A stretch of DNA of 26,017 nt, from positions 1 to 26,017 of IMG/VR virus record IMGVR_UViG_3300031841_002568. The stretch is one strand, 5' to 3'. Shown piece after piece: positions 7,112 to 26,017 of this stretch. Position 1 is the stretch's first letter. Every line of letters starts with the position of its first letter. The position numbers and the translations under genes are program-made. Origin of the DNA: a virus. The notes under the pieces are model-generated. The model made no database searches. It had not been told where the DNA came from and saw only the letters and a program-made list of their open reading frames with translations.

Positions 7112-7119
7112 TATTTATA
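7112..7119 (+). promoter_or_regulatory. Candidate late promoter (TATTTATA) abutting the start of the next gene
   Basis: TATTTATA begins at the base after the upstream TGA and ends only four bases before the ATG at 7124. With T4-like spacing, transcription would begin at or near the start codon, giving a nearly leaderless message; no Shine-Dalgarno sequence is visible. Confidence 0.5.
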
Positions 7120-7123
7120 CTAA

Positions 7124-8689
7124 ATGTCTGTAACGGAAAGCACGAATATCGGAACCAGGGTATCTGTTAACACAAATACTACACAAGTACGTATAACGCC
7201 TGCAGATCAATCTAAACTAGTAATATCTAATACTACACAAAATAGAGTAGTAATATCAGACCCCAGCAGACATGATAGTATAGAAAGTGTTGCACCAGTT
7301 ATACATACAGTACGTGTCCAGGATACATTACGTCAATCAGTTGTTTCTGATATAACAACGAACACAGTTGTAATAAATACAGGTCTACAAGGTCCAAAAG
7401 GGGATACGGGTGATACTGGACCGCAGGCATCTGATACTAATTTAGCTAATTCGCAACTTGTTTTATCTGACAACAGAAGTTTTATTTTAAATAGTTCGGC
7501 ATTATCATTTAGAGAAGATGCATTAACAACTCATAATCAATCATTACAAATCAATTCGGACGGAATCACTGTTGGCGCTAACGCCGGCGAAACTGCTTTT
7601 TTGAGATTACGTAATGCAAATGATGGTAATAGTTTACCTTATGCATTATCATTTCGTACGCCGAGTATATTAGGTACTAATGTTACATGGACATTACCAA
7701 GTACTATATTAACCGACGGATTGTTAACGACTAATGGAGCCGGTGAGTGGTCATTTACTAATACTTTAAATATTAACGAACTTACGGCGTCTGGCGATAT
7801 CAGTTCAAGTATCAATTCTACAGCATCATTCGGTGTTTATTTAGGTGATGGGTCACAATTAACTGGTGTACAATCTACAATCGAAACTAGTAGTTTTGCA
7901 ATAACTGGTAGTGACGTAACATTTTTAAATGTAACAGCTTCTAATATCTCAGCTAGCGGCGCAATAACATCATTCGGCAATATTATAACAAAAGGTGAAT
8001 TGAGGGGATTTCATGGGACCGCCAATGAATTATTTTTAGCAAGAGGTACGAGCTATGAATTTGGAGCATCTGTCCCGTTTATAGTAGTAGGTAATGTAAC
8101 AGCATCGTCTAATATAAGTTCTAGCGGAACGATCTCTGCCAATACAATTACTGCCAATACATATACAAATCTGCCGCATTCAGAGACATATGCATTAGGT
8201 TTTGTAGATTCATCTGGAATCGACGCTCGTAAGTCATACTTTACATCATTAGAACGTACTAGTGCTGCACTTGTTAATAGTAATTTTGGAGCTGCCACGT
8301 TTAATATGCCAGCGAGTGAATATGTGAATAGAGCAATAGTCTTAAAAGACAAAGGCACGTGCACTGATATACATGTTCAAGGATTTGTAATAGTCGATGG
8401 CGCTGCGGGCTTCGGCGCCGGCATTCAATTAGATATATATCATTCTACCGCGTCATTAACAATGGCCGCGACACAATCATTAACACGTGCGACGGGATTT
8501 GAAATACCAACAGATCCTACATTAACATATCAAGTACTAAACTTCAGCGGATCAATATCAAATGCTGTTGATAGTATAGGCGAAAATTCTATGATAACAT
8601 TGGCAGTTTCAAATACTAGTCCGAGCATACACTTTACCGGCGGTACTGTTACAATATCTGCATTCTTGACACATCGATATACGAAATAA
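7124..8689 (+). CDS. Fibre protein with collagen-like stretch
   Basis: A 521-aa protein. The N-terminal 80 residues are a beta-rich, Thr/Val/Asn-rich repeat (VVISDPSRH and similar). Five collagen-like Gly-X-Y triplets follow at residues 87-101 (GLQGPKGDTGDTGPQ), a common trimerising element in phage fibres. Around residues 232-249 is the STASFGVYLGDGSQLTGV module shared with the 1129-aa fibre. The C-terminal 150 residues form a distinct domain (YVNRAIVLKDKGTCTDIHVQ and onward), possibly the receptor-facing head. The ATG used is the first in frame, because an in-frame TAA sits directly before it. It has no Shine-Dalgarno and lies four bases after a promoter-like motif. Fibre assignment is good; the ligand is unknown. 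Confidence 0.7.
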   Translation: MSVTESTNIGTRVSVNTNTTQVRITPADQSKLVISNTTQNRVVISDPSRHDSIESVAPVIHTVRVQDTLRQSVVSDITTNTVVINTGLQGPKGDTGDTGPQASDTNLANSQLVLSDNRSFILNSSALSFREDALTTHNQSLQINSDGITVGANAGETAFLRLRNANDGNSLPYALSFRTPSILGTNVTWTLPSTILTDGLLTTNGAGEWSFTNTLNINELTASGDISSSINSTASFGVYLGDGSQLTGVQSTIETSSFAITGSDVTFLNVTASNISASGAITSFGNIITKGELRGFHGTANELFLARGTSYEFGASVPFIVVGNVTASSNISSSGTISANTITANTYTNLPHSETYALGFVDSSGIDARKSYFTSLERTSAALVNSNFGAATFNMPASEYVNRAIVLKDKGTCTDIHVQGFVIVDGAAGFGAGIQLDIYHSTASLTMAATQSLTRATGFEIPTDPTLTYQVLNFSGSISNAVDSIGENSMITLAVSNTSPSIHFTGGTVTISAFLTHRYTK

Positions 8690-13124: not shown

Positions 13125-13132
13125 TATTTATA
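13125..13132 (+). promoter_or_regulatory. Candidate late promoter (TATTTATA)
   Basis: TATTTATA sits 15 bases before the ATG at 13148. AAAGGA (13135-13140) is the ribosome-binding site, seven bases before the start. Confidence 0.6.
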
Positions 13133-13147
13133 ACAAAGGAATAAGTT

Positions 13148-13423
13148 ATGGCAGATCCAATCAAATTTACAGACGAAGAGCTTACAAATCTCAAAGAGCT
13201 TAGAACTAATAATGCAAACATTGTTAGCCAATTTGGCCAAATCGAACTTGAAAAGTTTTTAACAGATCAGCGTGTTGAACAACTTGATCAGGCGAAACTT
13301 CAATTGCAGTCGCAGTTAGAAAAACTTCAAGAACGTGAGCGTGAATTAGTTAAAGAATTGAACGACAAATATGGAGCTGGAACAGTAGATATCGAATCCG
13401 GTATGTTTGTTCCGAACACATAA
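13148..13423 (+). CDS. Small coiled-coil protein next to the sheath gene
   Basis: A 91-aa protein, mostly one long helix with heptad-like spacing: LTNLKELRTNN, then ELEKFLTDQRVEQLDQAKLQ and LEKLQERERELVKEL. It ends in a conserved-looking NDKYGAGTVDIESGMF tail. I recall similar small proteins beside sheath genes in marine T4-like phages, but no function is known to me. It has its own promoter motif and a good AAAGGA site, which suggests high late expression, as for a structural or assembly protein. It could be a chaperone or a minor virion protein; neither is shown by the sequence. Confidence 0.7.
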   Translation: MADPIKFTDEELTNLKELRTNNANIVSQFGQIELEKFLTDQRVEQLDQAKLQLQSQLEKLQERERELVKELNDKYGAGTVDIESGMFVPNT

Positions 13424-13436
13424 CTGTTTGGCTTTC

Positions 13437-13480
13437 TGCTCCAATATTTATTATTGATAATCTGTAATAAAATAGGAGCA
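13437..13480 (+). promoter_or_regulatory. Hairpin hiding the sheath-gene ribosome-binding site
   Basis: Outer stem TGCTCC (13437-13442) pairs perfectly with GGAGCA (13475-13480), which contains the sheath Shine-Dalgarno (TAGGAG, 13473-13478). After small bulges, an inner stem TTTATTA (13447-13453) pairs perfectly with TAATAAA (13465-13471). The loop is 13454-13464. The 5' arm contains the late-promoter motif TATTTATT (13445-13452), so only transcripts started upstream can form this hairpin. Confidence 0.6.
13445..13452 (+). promoter_or_regulatory. Candidate late promoter (TATTTATT) for the sheath gene
   Basis: TATTTATT lies 33 bases before the ATG at 13486, inside the 5' arm of the hairpin described at 13437-13480. 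A start about six bases downstream would give a leader beginning in the hairpin loop, leaving TAGGAG free. Confidence 0.55.
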
Positions 13481-13485
13481 TTATA

Positions 13486-15606
13486 ATGGCCGAAAAAATA
13501 GTATCTCCCGGTGTATTTACGAACGAAGTTGATCAGTCGTTCTTACCGGCAGGAGTACAAGCTATCGGTGCTGCGGTTATCGGACCAACGGCTAAAGGGC
13601 CGTCGGGTGTCCCAACCGTAGTATCTAGCTACTCCGAATTCGTACAATTGTTTGGTAGTGCATTTTCATCTGGATCTGGCGCAGTAGAACAAAAGTACAA
13701 ATATTTAACAAACTACTCAGCACAAGAATACTTAAAGTATGCTGATACATTAACCGTCGTCCGTGTCAGTGATGGAGCATCCCATGCAACAGCTGAAGTA
13801 GGAGCAACAGGTGCAACGACTAATCAAGCAAAAGGCGCATTAACAATTGTAGGCACATTTGGTCAATCTGTTAATGACCAGGTTCGTATTAATGTCAACG
13901 ATCGTGATTATAAATTTATTGCATATAGTAGTCCGGCGCCGACGGATGTAGTGAATAACACATACTACTTTGTAACCGGCTCTGATACAGCAACGTTTGT
14001 AGATAATTTGGTAGCAGAAATTAATGCAGCCAATATCGGCGTTGTTGCAAATGACGGTCTTTCCGATTCAATATTAGCATTAACAGCATCTGCATTCGGC
14101 TCGTCCGGTGATAGCATAACAGTTAATACCGGATCATCTGATTCAGACTTCCCAGGCAATGCCACAGAATTGACATTGAGCGGCGGCGCTGGACCTTCAA
14201 CGGTATCATTTAAACTTCATACATTATCTGACGGCGCAGATCAAAATAGTAACGGCAGCGAAGGAACAAATGGATTGTTGGCTAATGGTTCTGAAAATAA
14301 CTTAAGATATGAAATTTCAAATCGTAATACGGCAAAGGGTACATTTACATTGACTATTCGTCGCGGTAATGATACTAATCGTCGTAAAGTTATTCTGGAG
14401 CAATATAACAATGCAACACTTGATCCTAATACACCTAACTACATTGCACGACTTATTGGTGATCAAGTACAAACATTAAGAGATGCTGGAACAACAGATC
14501 CATTCCTGCAATTGTCAGGATCGTATGCTAATAGATCCAAATTAGTTCGTGTTGAAGTATTACAAAATACTTATAACTATTTAGATGAAAATGGTAATAT
14601 TAGAGACGGTTCATTAACATCCTTTATCCCAAGTGCGCAGTCAGGTTCATTCTCCGGCGGATCGGATGGAACTGTTACCAATCCTAGATTGTTTAATGAA
14701 AATATTAGCAATACAAATACACAGGGATATAATTTAGCAAATACTGGTCCTAAGAATGCATATATAGATGCTATTAGATTGTTAAAGAATCAGGATGAAT
14801 ATGATATTAATTTAATAACATTGCCTGGCCTGGTAGATAACTATTCTAATCATGCTACAGTAATTACCGAAGCATTGAACATGTGTGAAGATAGAGGTGA
14901 TTGTTTCTTTGTTATTGATCCTGCGGGATATAGTACTGCATTAACGGCAGTAACTACCGAAGCAGAAGAGCGTGATACGAATTATGCTGCAATGTATTGG
15001 CCATGGGTTAAGATTCCAGATGCAGAGTTAAACAAAGCAGTTTGGGTTCCAGCATCCACTTTGATTCCTAGTGTATATGCATTTAATGACAGAGTTGCTG
15101 CTCCATGGTTTGCACCTGCAGGTTTGAATAGAGGCGGTATTGATATTGCAATCCAAGCTGAAAGAAAGTTGACTCAAGCTAACAGAGATACTTTATATGA
15201 TAGCAATGTTAACCCAATTGCAACTTTCCCGAATACCGGTGTAGTTGTGTATGGACAAAAGACATTGCAGAAAAAGTCATCTGCATTAGATAGAGTTAAT
15301 GTACGTAGATTGTTGATCAATGCTAAGAAGTTTATTGCTTCGTCTAGTAAGTTCTTGGTATTCGAACAAAATACAACGGTAACAAGAAACAGATTCTTAG
15401 GTATTGTGAATCCATACTTTGAAAATGTACAACAGCGTCAAGGCTTGTATGCATTTAGAGTTGTAATGGATGAGACAACCAATACCCCAGATGTTATTGA
15501 TAGAAATGAAATGAGAGGACAAATCTTCCTCCAGCCTGCTAAAACGGCTGAATTCATTGTTATTGATTTCAATGTGTTACCAACAGGTGCATCGTTCCCA
15601 GAATAA
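13486..15606 (+). CDS. 18: Tail sheath protein, T4 gp18-like
   Basis: A 706-aa contractile sheath subunit (T4 gp18 is 659 aa). Hallmarks are the N-terminus EKIVSPGVFTNEVDQSFLP, followed by GAAVIGPTAKGPSGVPTVV, and a C-terminus with QGLYAFRVVMDETTNTP and VIDRNEMRGQIFLQPAK, closely matching the end of T4 gp18. The contractile core is at the two ends. Residues about 112-236 look like an inserted beta domain (TIVGTFGQSVNDQVRINVND, then a DTATFVDNLVAEINA helix and an ALTASAFGSSGDSITVNTG strand pair) that would project from the sheath surface. Arginine codon use changes sharply inside the gene: 10 CGN to 3 AGA before about 14600 and 3 CGN to 15 AGA after. Translation probably uses TAGGAG at 13473-13478, which lies in a hairpin. 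Confidence 0.95.
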   Translation: MAEKIVSPGVFTNEVDQSFLPAGVQAIGAAVIGPTAKGPSGVPTVVSSYSEFVQLFGSAFSSGSGAVEQKYKYLTNYSAQEYLKYADTLTVVRVSDGASHATAEVGATGATTNQAKGALTIVGTFGQSVNDQVRINVNDRDYKFIAYSSPAPTDVVNNTYYFVTGSDTATFVDNLVAEINAANIGVVANDGLSDSILALTASAFGSSGDSITVNTGSSDSDFPGNATELTLSGGAGPSTVSFKLHTLSDGADQNSNGSEGTNGLLANGSENNLRYEISNRNTAKGTFTLTIRRGNDTNRRKVILEQYNNATLDPNTPNYIARLIGDQVQTLRDAGTTDPFLQLSGSYANRSKLVRVEVLQNTYNYLDENGNIRDGSLTSFIPSAQSGSFSGGSDGTVTNPRLFNENISNTNTQGYNLANTGPKNAYIDAIRLLKNQDEYDINLITLPGLVDNYSNHATVITEALNMCEDRGDCFFVIDPAGYSTALTAVTTEAEERDTNYAAMYWPWVKIPDAELNKAVWVPASTLIPSVYAFNDRVAAPWFAPAGLNRGGIDIAIQAERKLTQANRDTLYDSNVNPIATFPNTGVVVYGQKTLQKKSSALDRVNVRRLLINAKKFIASSSKFLVFEQNTTVTRNRFLGIVNPYFENVQQRQGLYAFRVVMDETTNTPDVIDRNEMRGQIFLQPAKTAEFIVIDFNVLPTGASFPE

Positions 15607-24900: not shown

Positions 24901-26017
24901 ATGATCATCGAATCAGATTCAGATCTTAAGTATGTACAAGAGTCCTTAGAACGAGGCGATAGCTTCTGGATTCCAATGTATTCGGACGTATACAAGCATT
25001 ATACTAACAATGATCTTAGCTTTGTTTACATCTATTCAATAGCCGATGATCAGGATTATCTGATTCCGTTACGGCATATGGATTGCTTATGCCTACAAAG
25101 AGAACGTATACAAGAACTTGCAAGTCCACATAGTATCTTTGTATTAGCAAAGAAACGATTCATGCATTTCTATAGTAAAACGTGTTATGATGCAGATCTC
25201 ATGGCATGGTGGCGGACTTTGAAAATGTTACCATACGATGATGTGAATACAGCTGCACATGATACTTGGAACAAGTGGTGGCATGCCGAGCCTAATACAA
25301 ATGATTGGCTACCTGTAACTAAACATTATGAGCGTTGTATAACAATGCGTAAGTTGTTTATGGAGCAGTACAATACATTTACATTGACCGAAGAGTTCAA
25401 ACGATATGATTCGTACATCATTGACAACTTCTATGCTGTAGAACAATCTGGATTGAGAGTAGACTATACTAAGTTCACAGGACATTTCAAGACGAATGGT
25501 CTAAAAGATAGTATGGCTAAGACAGAATACAATCCATATACGAGTACAGGCCGACCTAGTAACAAGTTCGGCGGAGTTAATTATGCTGCGCTCAATAAAG
25601 AAGATGGATGTAGGACTGCATTTGTAAGTAGATTTGAACGAGGTATGTTGTTGGAGTTTGACTATGATGCATATCACGTACGGCTGATTGCAGAGTTGAT
25701 AGGATATGATTTGCCCGACGGATCTGTTCATGAATACTTTGGTAGACAGTATTTCGGTAAGGACGAATTATCAGATGAAGAATATGCTCAAAGTAAACAG
25801 ATTACGTTTAGATTGTTATATGGGGGCATCGATTCAGACTTTGCAAAAGTTCCATTCTTTGGTAAGGTGCAATCATATGTAGGTAGTCTTTGGCGAGGAT
25901 TTAAACAAGATGGTTACATAACAACTCCATACTTCAAACGGCGAATGCCCGGCGAACATATGTGGGAGATGAATCCTAACAAATTGTTTAACTATCTTTT
26001 GCAAGCAACTGAAACAG
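24901..26017 (+). CDS. Family A DNA polymerase-like protein, 5' part (partial)
   Basis: Open for 372 codons to the end of the window. Family A (Pol I) landmarks in order are VEQSGLRVD (residues 180-188), TSTGRPSN (214-221, the T-x-TGR-x-S motif), motif A as EFDYDAYHVRLIAEL with D254 in the metal-binding position, HEYFGRQYFG (277-286), and motif B as SKQITFRLLYGG with K299, F303 and Y307 matching E. coli K758, F762 and Y766. Motif C lies beyond the window. Differences are H259 where Pol I has the steric-gate Glu710, and Tyr295 where it has Arg754. Residues 1-130 resemble a 3'-5' exonuclease domain (LSFVYIYSIADDQDYLIPL) but without the catalytic Asp/Glu residues. T4 itself uses a family B polymerase. 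The start agrees with the beginning of the exonuclease-like fold, but its ribosome-binding site is poor and hairpin-embedded. Confidence 0.75.
   Translation, partial: MIIESDSDLKYVQESLERGDSFWIPMYSDVYKHYTNNDLSFVYIYSIADDQDYLIPLRHMDCLCLQRERIQELASPHSIFVLAKKRFMHFYSKTCYDADLMAWWRTLKMLPYDDVNTAAHDTWNKWWHAEPNTNDWLPVTKHYERCITMRKLFMEQYNTFTLTEEFKRYDSYIIDNFYAVEQSGLRVDYTKFTGHFKTNGLKDSMAKTEYNPYTSTGRPSNKFGGVNYAALNKEDGCRTAFVSRFERGMLLEFDYDAYHVRLIAELIGYDLPDGSVHEYFGRQYFGKDELSDEEYAQSKQITFRLLYGGIDSDFAKVPFFGKVQSYVGSLWRGFKQDGYITTPYFKRRMPGEHMWEMNPNKLFNYLLQATET

Follow-up and report, generated by a model that had tools for sequence, protein, structure and literature searches.

Does the tail sheath gene of this uncultured T4-like phage carry its promoter inside a hairpin that hides its own ribosome-binding site, and what would such an arrangement control? 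The window, i.e., the whole stretch of DNA that was analysed, comprises 26,017 nt of a 26-kb IMG/VR record. The sheath gene lies on the + strand at positions 13486–15606 and encodes a protein of 706 aa that matches the tail sheath family phrog_23 (E 9e-79). Its ATG is at 13486, shortly preceded by the Shine-Dalgarno sequence (SD) AGGAG at 13474–13478. By sheath protein, the nearest isolates are Flavobacterium phage immuto (46% identity) and Microcystis phage Mel-JY01 (49% identity across 80% of the protein); a nucleotide search against isolated phages gave no match. At the end of the window, a reading frame at 25003–26017, truncated by the end of the record, weakly matches family A DNA polymerase (PF00476, below the cut-off), and family A polymerases are also encoded by Immutovirus.

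The leader of the sheath gene contains two nested stems, all pairs of which are Watson-Crick. In the outer, SD-sequestering stem, TGCTCC (13437–13442, + strand) pairs with GGAGCA (13475–13480), so that GGAG of the SD lies within the 3' arm; in the inner stem, TTTATTA (13447–13453) pairs with TAATAAA (13465–13471). Both are present in the minimum free energy structure of 13400–13500 (−23.1 kcal/mol, z −2.95), whose stability was equalled or exceeded by 2 of 200 shuffled sequences, and their predicted probabilities are 0.94–0.99 and 0.95, respectively, in contexts of ~80 to 800 nt. The hairpin reported in the preliminary description, with the SD locked in it, is thus confirmed to the base, and the predicted fold agrees. 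An additional outer helix between 13427–13433 and the start-codon region (13488–13494) is predicted in the read-through fold but is weaker and has no covariation support.

The predicted cost of opening the SD depends on whether the 5' arm is present. It is 9–11 kcal/mol for RNAs of ~80–200 nt that contain the arm, 6 kcal/mol for an RNA beginning at 13148 and 1–2.4 kcal/mol for RNAs starting at or after 13443, all of which lack the 5' arm of the SD stem. With T4-like spacing assumed, transcription would be expected to start at 13458, and folding with and without the bases 5' of that position, a comparison proposed at the outset, gave ~11 and ~2 kcal/mol. For T4 gene e, a proven case, the identical computation gave 12.2 against a null of 3.5. 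Shuffling only the 11 nt between the GTTTGRC and TATTTAT boxes (described below), the spacer in which the outer 5' arm is located, lowered the cost from 10.6 to 5.4 (P 0.03). On the assumed start, these results support the proposed layout, with a promoter in the 5' arm, the SD in the 3' arm, and the 5' arm missing from the gene's own transcript.

The candidate promoter is the −10-type late promoter motif TATTTATT (13445–13452, + strand; consensus ATATTTATAnnAAA), which overlaps the 5' arm of the inner stem at 13447–13453. The evidence for it lies in recurrence and strand bias. By itself, TATTTATT is no commoner in the window than expected (3 occurrences against 4.4 expected). The pattern ATATTTAT[AT] occurs there nine times on the gene strand, every time just 5' of a gene (TATTTATW at 351, 7112, 8703, 12239, 13125, 13445, 15618, 16212 and 17295), and once on the other strand. 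Among four large relatives all 52 occurrences of ATATTTATANNAAA lie on one strand, with none on the other, and in the Immutovirus genome TATTTATW lies 5' of many head and tail genes. Read as TATTTATA, the motif is the reverse complement of the T4 late box TATAAATA; because it is strictly confined to the gene strand, we rejected the reading as an antisense T4 promoter. We take TATTTATW to be a promoter of structural (late) genes and infer from these patterns that TATTTATT is an active one. A literature search for TATTTATA as a late promoter returned nothing, which does not imply its absence elsewhere. In the region 7112–7124, TATTTATA stands 12 nt 5' of the ATG of a 521-aa ORF, and a T4-like start there would yield a (nearly) leaderless mRNA.

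A second element accompanies the motif at the sheath gene. GTTTGGC (13426–13432, + strand) begins 19 nt, start to start, 5' of TATTTAT, and among 72 sheath upstream regions located via the protein, without using the box, GTTT occurs at exactly this distance in 71, the single exception being a contig that ends at the box position. Of the sequences that are common at −19 in 273 other TATTTAT sites, none is GTTTG. Conversely, a scan of viral contigs for GTTTGRC-N11-ATATTTATW, which made no use of the sheath protein, yielded 114 matches across the loci examined, of which 78 are upstream of sheath genes with sheath identities down to ~29%, and a looser box pattern occurs exactly once per contig in 8 large contigs. 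In all, GTTTGRC was seen 19 nt before TATTTAT upstream of sheath genes at ~120 loci; in a few relatives the box is also present before the 91-aa gene upstream of the sheath gene (promoters L026 and L047; L139, L141 and L162). If the box is taken as an RNA arm, its pairing with the last part of the upstream gene stays at chance level (7/118 at P<=0.05). A conserved pairing of the box with the start codon was likewise discarded: variation at the R of GTTTGRC is not matched by variation at the third base of codon 2, and the pair is impossible with GTTTGAC. Since pairing with upstream RNA does not exceed chance, the box is likely to be a DNA site bound by a protein, a putative role read from the sequence; its spacing resembles that of a −35 or activator site. 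This second conserved box of the sheath promoters is a new finding for this phage group.

Transcripts carrying the 5' arms would have to arrive from upstream. The likely source is a 91-aa ORF (13148–13423, + strand), itself preceded by TATTTATA at 13125. A terminator scan found no intrinsic terminator with a T-run in the stretch from this ORF to the sheath gene and flagged just a weak terminator-like stem at 13412–13431; the hairpin itself is not followed by a T-run and was dismissed as a terminator. The sequence, the predicted folds and energies, the gene specificity, the recurrence and the partial compensation lead us to favour, with moderate confidence, a promoter-in-hairpin translational gate of the type known from T4 gene e. 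Read-through RNA would fold 13437–13480 into the two-part hairpin, which would occlude the SD, and would be poorly translated for sheath. RNA made from the gene's own promoter (the GTTTGGC box plus TATTTATT) would start in the loop without both 5' arms and would be freely translated. Sheath synthesis would then track the activity of its own promoter whatever arrives from upstream.

A first alternative to such a gate is that the hairpin is a functionless product of chance in an AT-rich leader. The inner stem consists of A and T only, the promoter motif itself forms its 5' arm, and many relatives have no hairpin at all. Among distinct sheath leaders, however, 16 of 48 exceeded shuffles of their own spacer at P<=0.05, compared with 9 of 162 other leaders from the same contigs with the same motif, and the SD-opening cost reached at least 6 kcal/mol in 15 of the 48 and in none of the 162. 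An extended set of sheath leaders gave 31 of 118 at P<=0.05 and 14 of 118 at P<=0.01, against 6 of 118 for a control segment of equal length upstream of the box. Many leaders in the sets of 48 and 118 are related, so these counts are not independent. Given this enrichment, the clean control segment and the compensatory changes described below, we consider a chance fold quite improbable. In these predicted folds the SD-hiding layout exceeds chance and belongs to the sheath gene, and both the predicted strength, near that of T4 gene e, and the restriction to this gene support the proposed switch.

Two further explanations accept the conservation and assign it to something other than translation. 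The spacer sequence TGCTCY could belong, with GTTTGRC, to the site at which the sheath promoter is recognized as DNA, and would then match the SD only incidentally. GTTTGRC is sheath-specific and held at a fixed spacing, which makes other nearby DNA constraints plausible, and the box itself takes part in RNA hairpins no more often than chance. The spacer is otherwise very variable, however, and complementarity to the SD is achieved through different sequences and positions in different lineages: L003 and L007 use the alternative arms TCCTATATT/AATATAGGA, and L061 uses GGCTCCTTA/TAAGGAGC. Changes in the 5' arm also match changes in the SD, as in L039, L040 and L192, where GCTCT/GGAGC has become GTTCT/GGAAC, and between L014 (TTTGCTCT/GGAGCAAA) and L016 (TTTACTCT/GGAGTAAA). 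Pairing extends to 71.3% of cells in the spacer/SD register, compared with 41–51% when the two are slid against each other, and 16 cells have changed on both sides. The covariation score, which is inflated by related sequences, is 0.225 versus 0.189 in shuffles (reached by 1 of 500); the count of double-change pairs and that of pair types showed no excess over shuffles. We regard a purely DNA-level role for the spacer as unlikely. Alternatively, the hairpin could serve RNA processing or stability, through an endonuclease cut in the loop of the read-through RNA or a stem that shields a 3' end, with a secondary effect on translation. A stable stem does stand between two genes, and RNA 5' ends at T4 promoter-like sites can arise by processing (PMC2988020). 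What is conserved across lineages, however, is the pairing with the SD rather than any particular stem, loop or cut motif, and the hairpin matched no Rfam family, the sole match being a chance miRNA below threshold. A processing element thus appears improbable, and the translational gate is preferred.

The gate is not a universal property of these phages. On the sheath protein tree the sequestered state requires ~15 changes, which means that sequestration has been gained or lost many times. The clade nearest to the window (L001 and L002) keeps the stem with a G-U change as its sole variation, and strict covariation therefore derives from the wider family. Strong sequestration is absent in about three quarters of relatives, several of them without a visible replacement. 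The expectation that pairing is maintained by compensation holds for the nearest clade and for scattered lineages with compensatory changes, but the pairing is lost or absent in many others. The preliminary description had staked the switch on related phages not losing the pairing without compensation; such losses were seen in many relatives, including L018, L060, L069 and L079, in which there is no pairing. The switch is accordingly a trait of some lineages, and the layout is selected in some and dispensable in others.

Comparison with characterized systems places the hairpin closest to T4 gene e, whose SD-hiding helix includes a late promoter in its 5' strand, a strand missing from late transcripts (PMC3014915). 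The predicted SD-opening costs are about equal (12.2 for e, ~11 here). In T4 soc, gene 49, I-TevI and Aeh1 mobE, too, the SD and/or AUG is sequestered only in RNA initiated upstream (PMC3014915, PMC2988022), and this general principle is shared by the sheath hairpin: predicted folding puts its SD in a helix in upstream-initiated RNA, and the position of the motif and its strand-specific conservation fit a promoter in the 5' strand, with the start site assumed. The analogy, as judged from predicted folds, fits the anatomy of the sheath hairpin. The anatomy of T4 soc is different; its helix is predicted around the SD and on the side of the AUG, and by our SD measure it is not sequestered (1.75, P 0.22). 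T4 gene 18, the sheath homologue, likewise has a late promoter motif, 36 nt before its ATG, but its SD is weakly paired (2.3 kcal/mol, P 0.16) and the GTTTG box is absent, and we do not consider it a precedent.

The promoters themselves resemble T4-type late promoters in having an 8-bp AT box just before structural genes. T4-type (gp55) late promoters, however, are defined by the TATAAATA box, also the motif of gene e, with no sequence conservation at −35 (PMC2988020), whereas the sheath promoters here combine TATTTATW with GTTTGRC at a fixed spacing. A gp55-like late sigma factor (phrog_234) was not found in the incomplete contigs of relatives. In immuto, L302 (78142–78477) is a weak gp55-like candidate (E 0.008 to phrog_234); its homologue in Mel-JY01, L303 (158803–159477), shares 39% identity with it.

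The setting of the sheath gene bears on the purpose of the gate. The T4 hairpins stop early read-through transcripts from producing late proteins (PMC3014915). Gene e lies in an early-transcribed region, where its hairpin prevents early lysis, and the late genes or homing endonucleases soc, gene 49, I-TevI and mobE lie inside early or middle units. The sheath gene is instead a core structural gene, and the genes directly upstream of it, which share its promoter motif, are structural too, so that transcripts reading through from them are not necessarily early. The original proposal that read-through is silenced to prevent early translation is therefore unsupported as stated. For the same reason, we infer that the purpose is more likely to make sheath output dependent on its own promoter than to block it early.

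A literature search for a sheath-gene hairpin returned nothing, which does not show that none exists. As far as the databases and literature searched show, three things are new: that the hairpin stands in front of a core structural gene, that it evolved repeatedly, and that a private promoter box accompanies it. Previous cases of promoter-in-hairpin control concerned homing endonucleases and late genes located within early regions. Here the hairpin recurs, with different arms, solely in front of the sheath gene in a widespread uncultured phage group, which suggests that such control can also decouple one structural gene from the late genes around it. The GTTTGRC box, present once per genome, points in a testable way to a regulator specific to the sheath gene, and it offers a simple marker by which sheath promoters can be recognized in metagenomes. 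More tentatively, in this large uncultured phage group a two-part promoter, composed of GTTTGRC and TATTTATA and present once per genome, may be reserved for the sheath gene and would probably be recognized by a dedicated phage factor, and in several lineages the overlapping hairpin may tie sheath translation to that promoter alone, so that the most abundant tail protein would be controlled apart from the other late genes.
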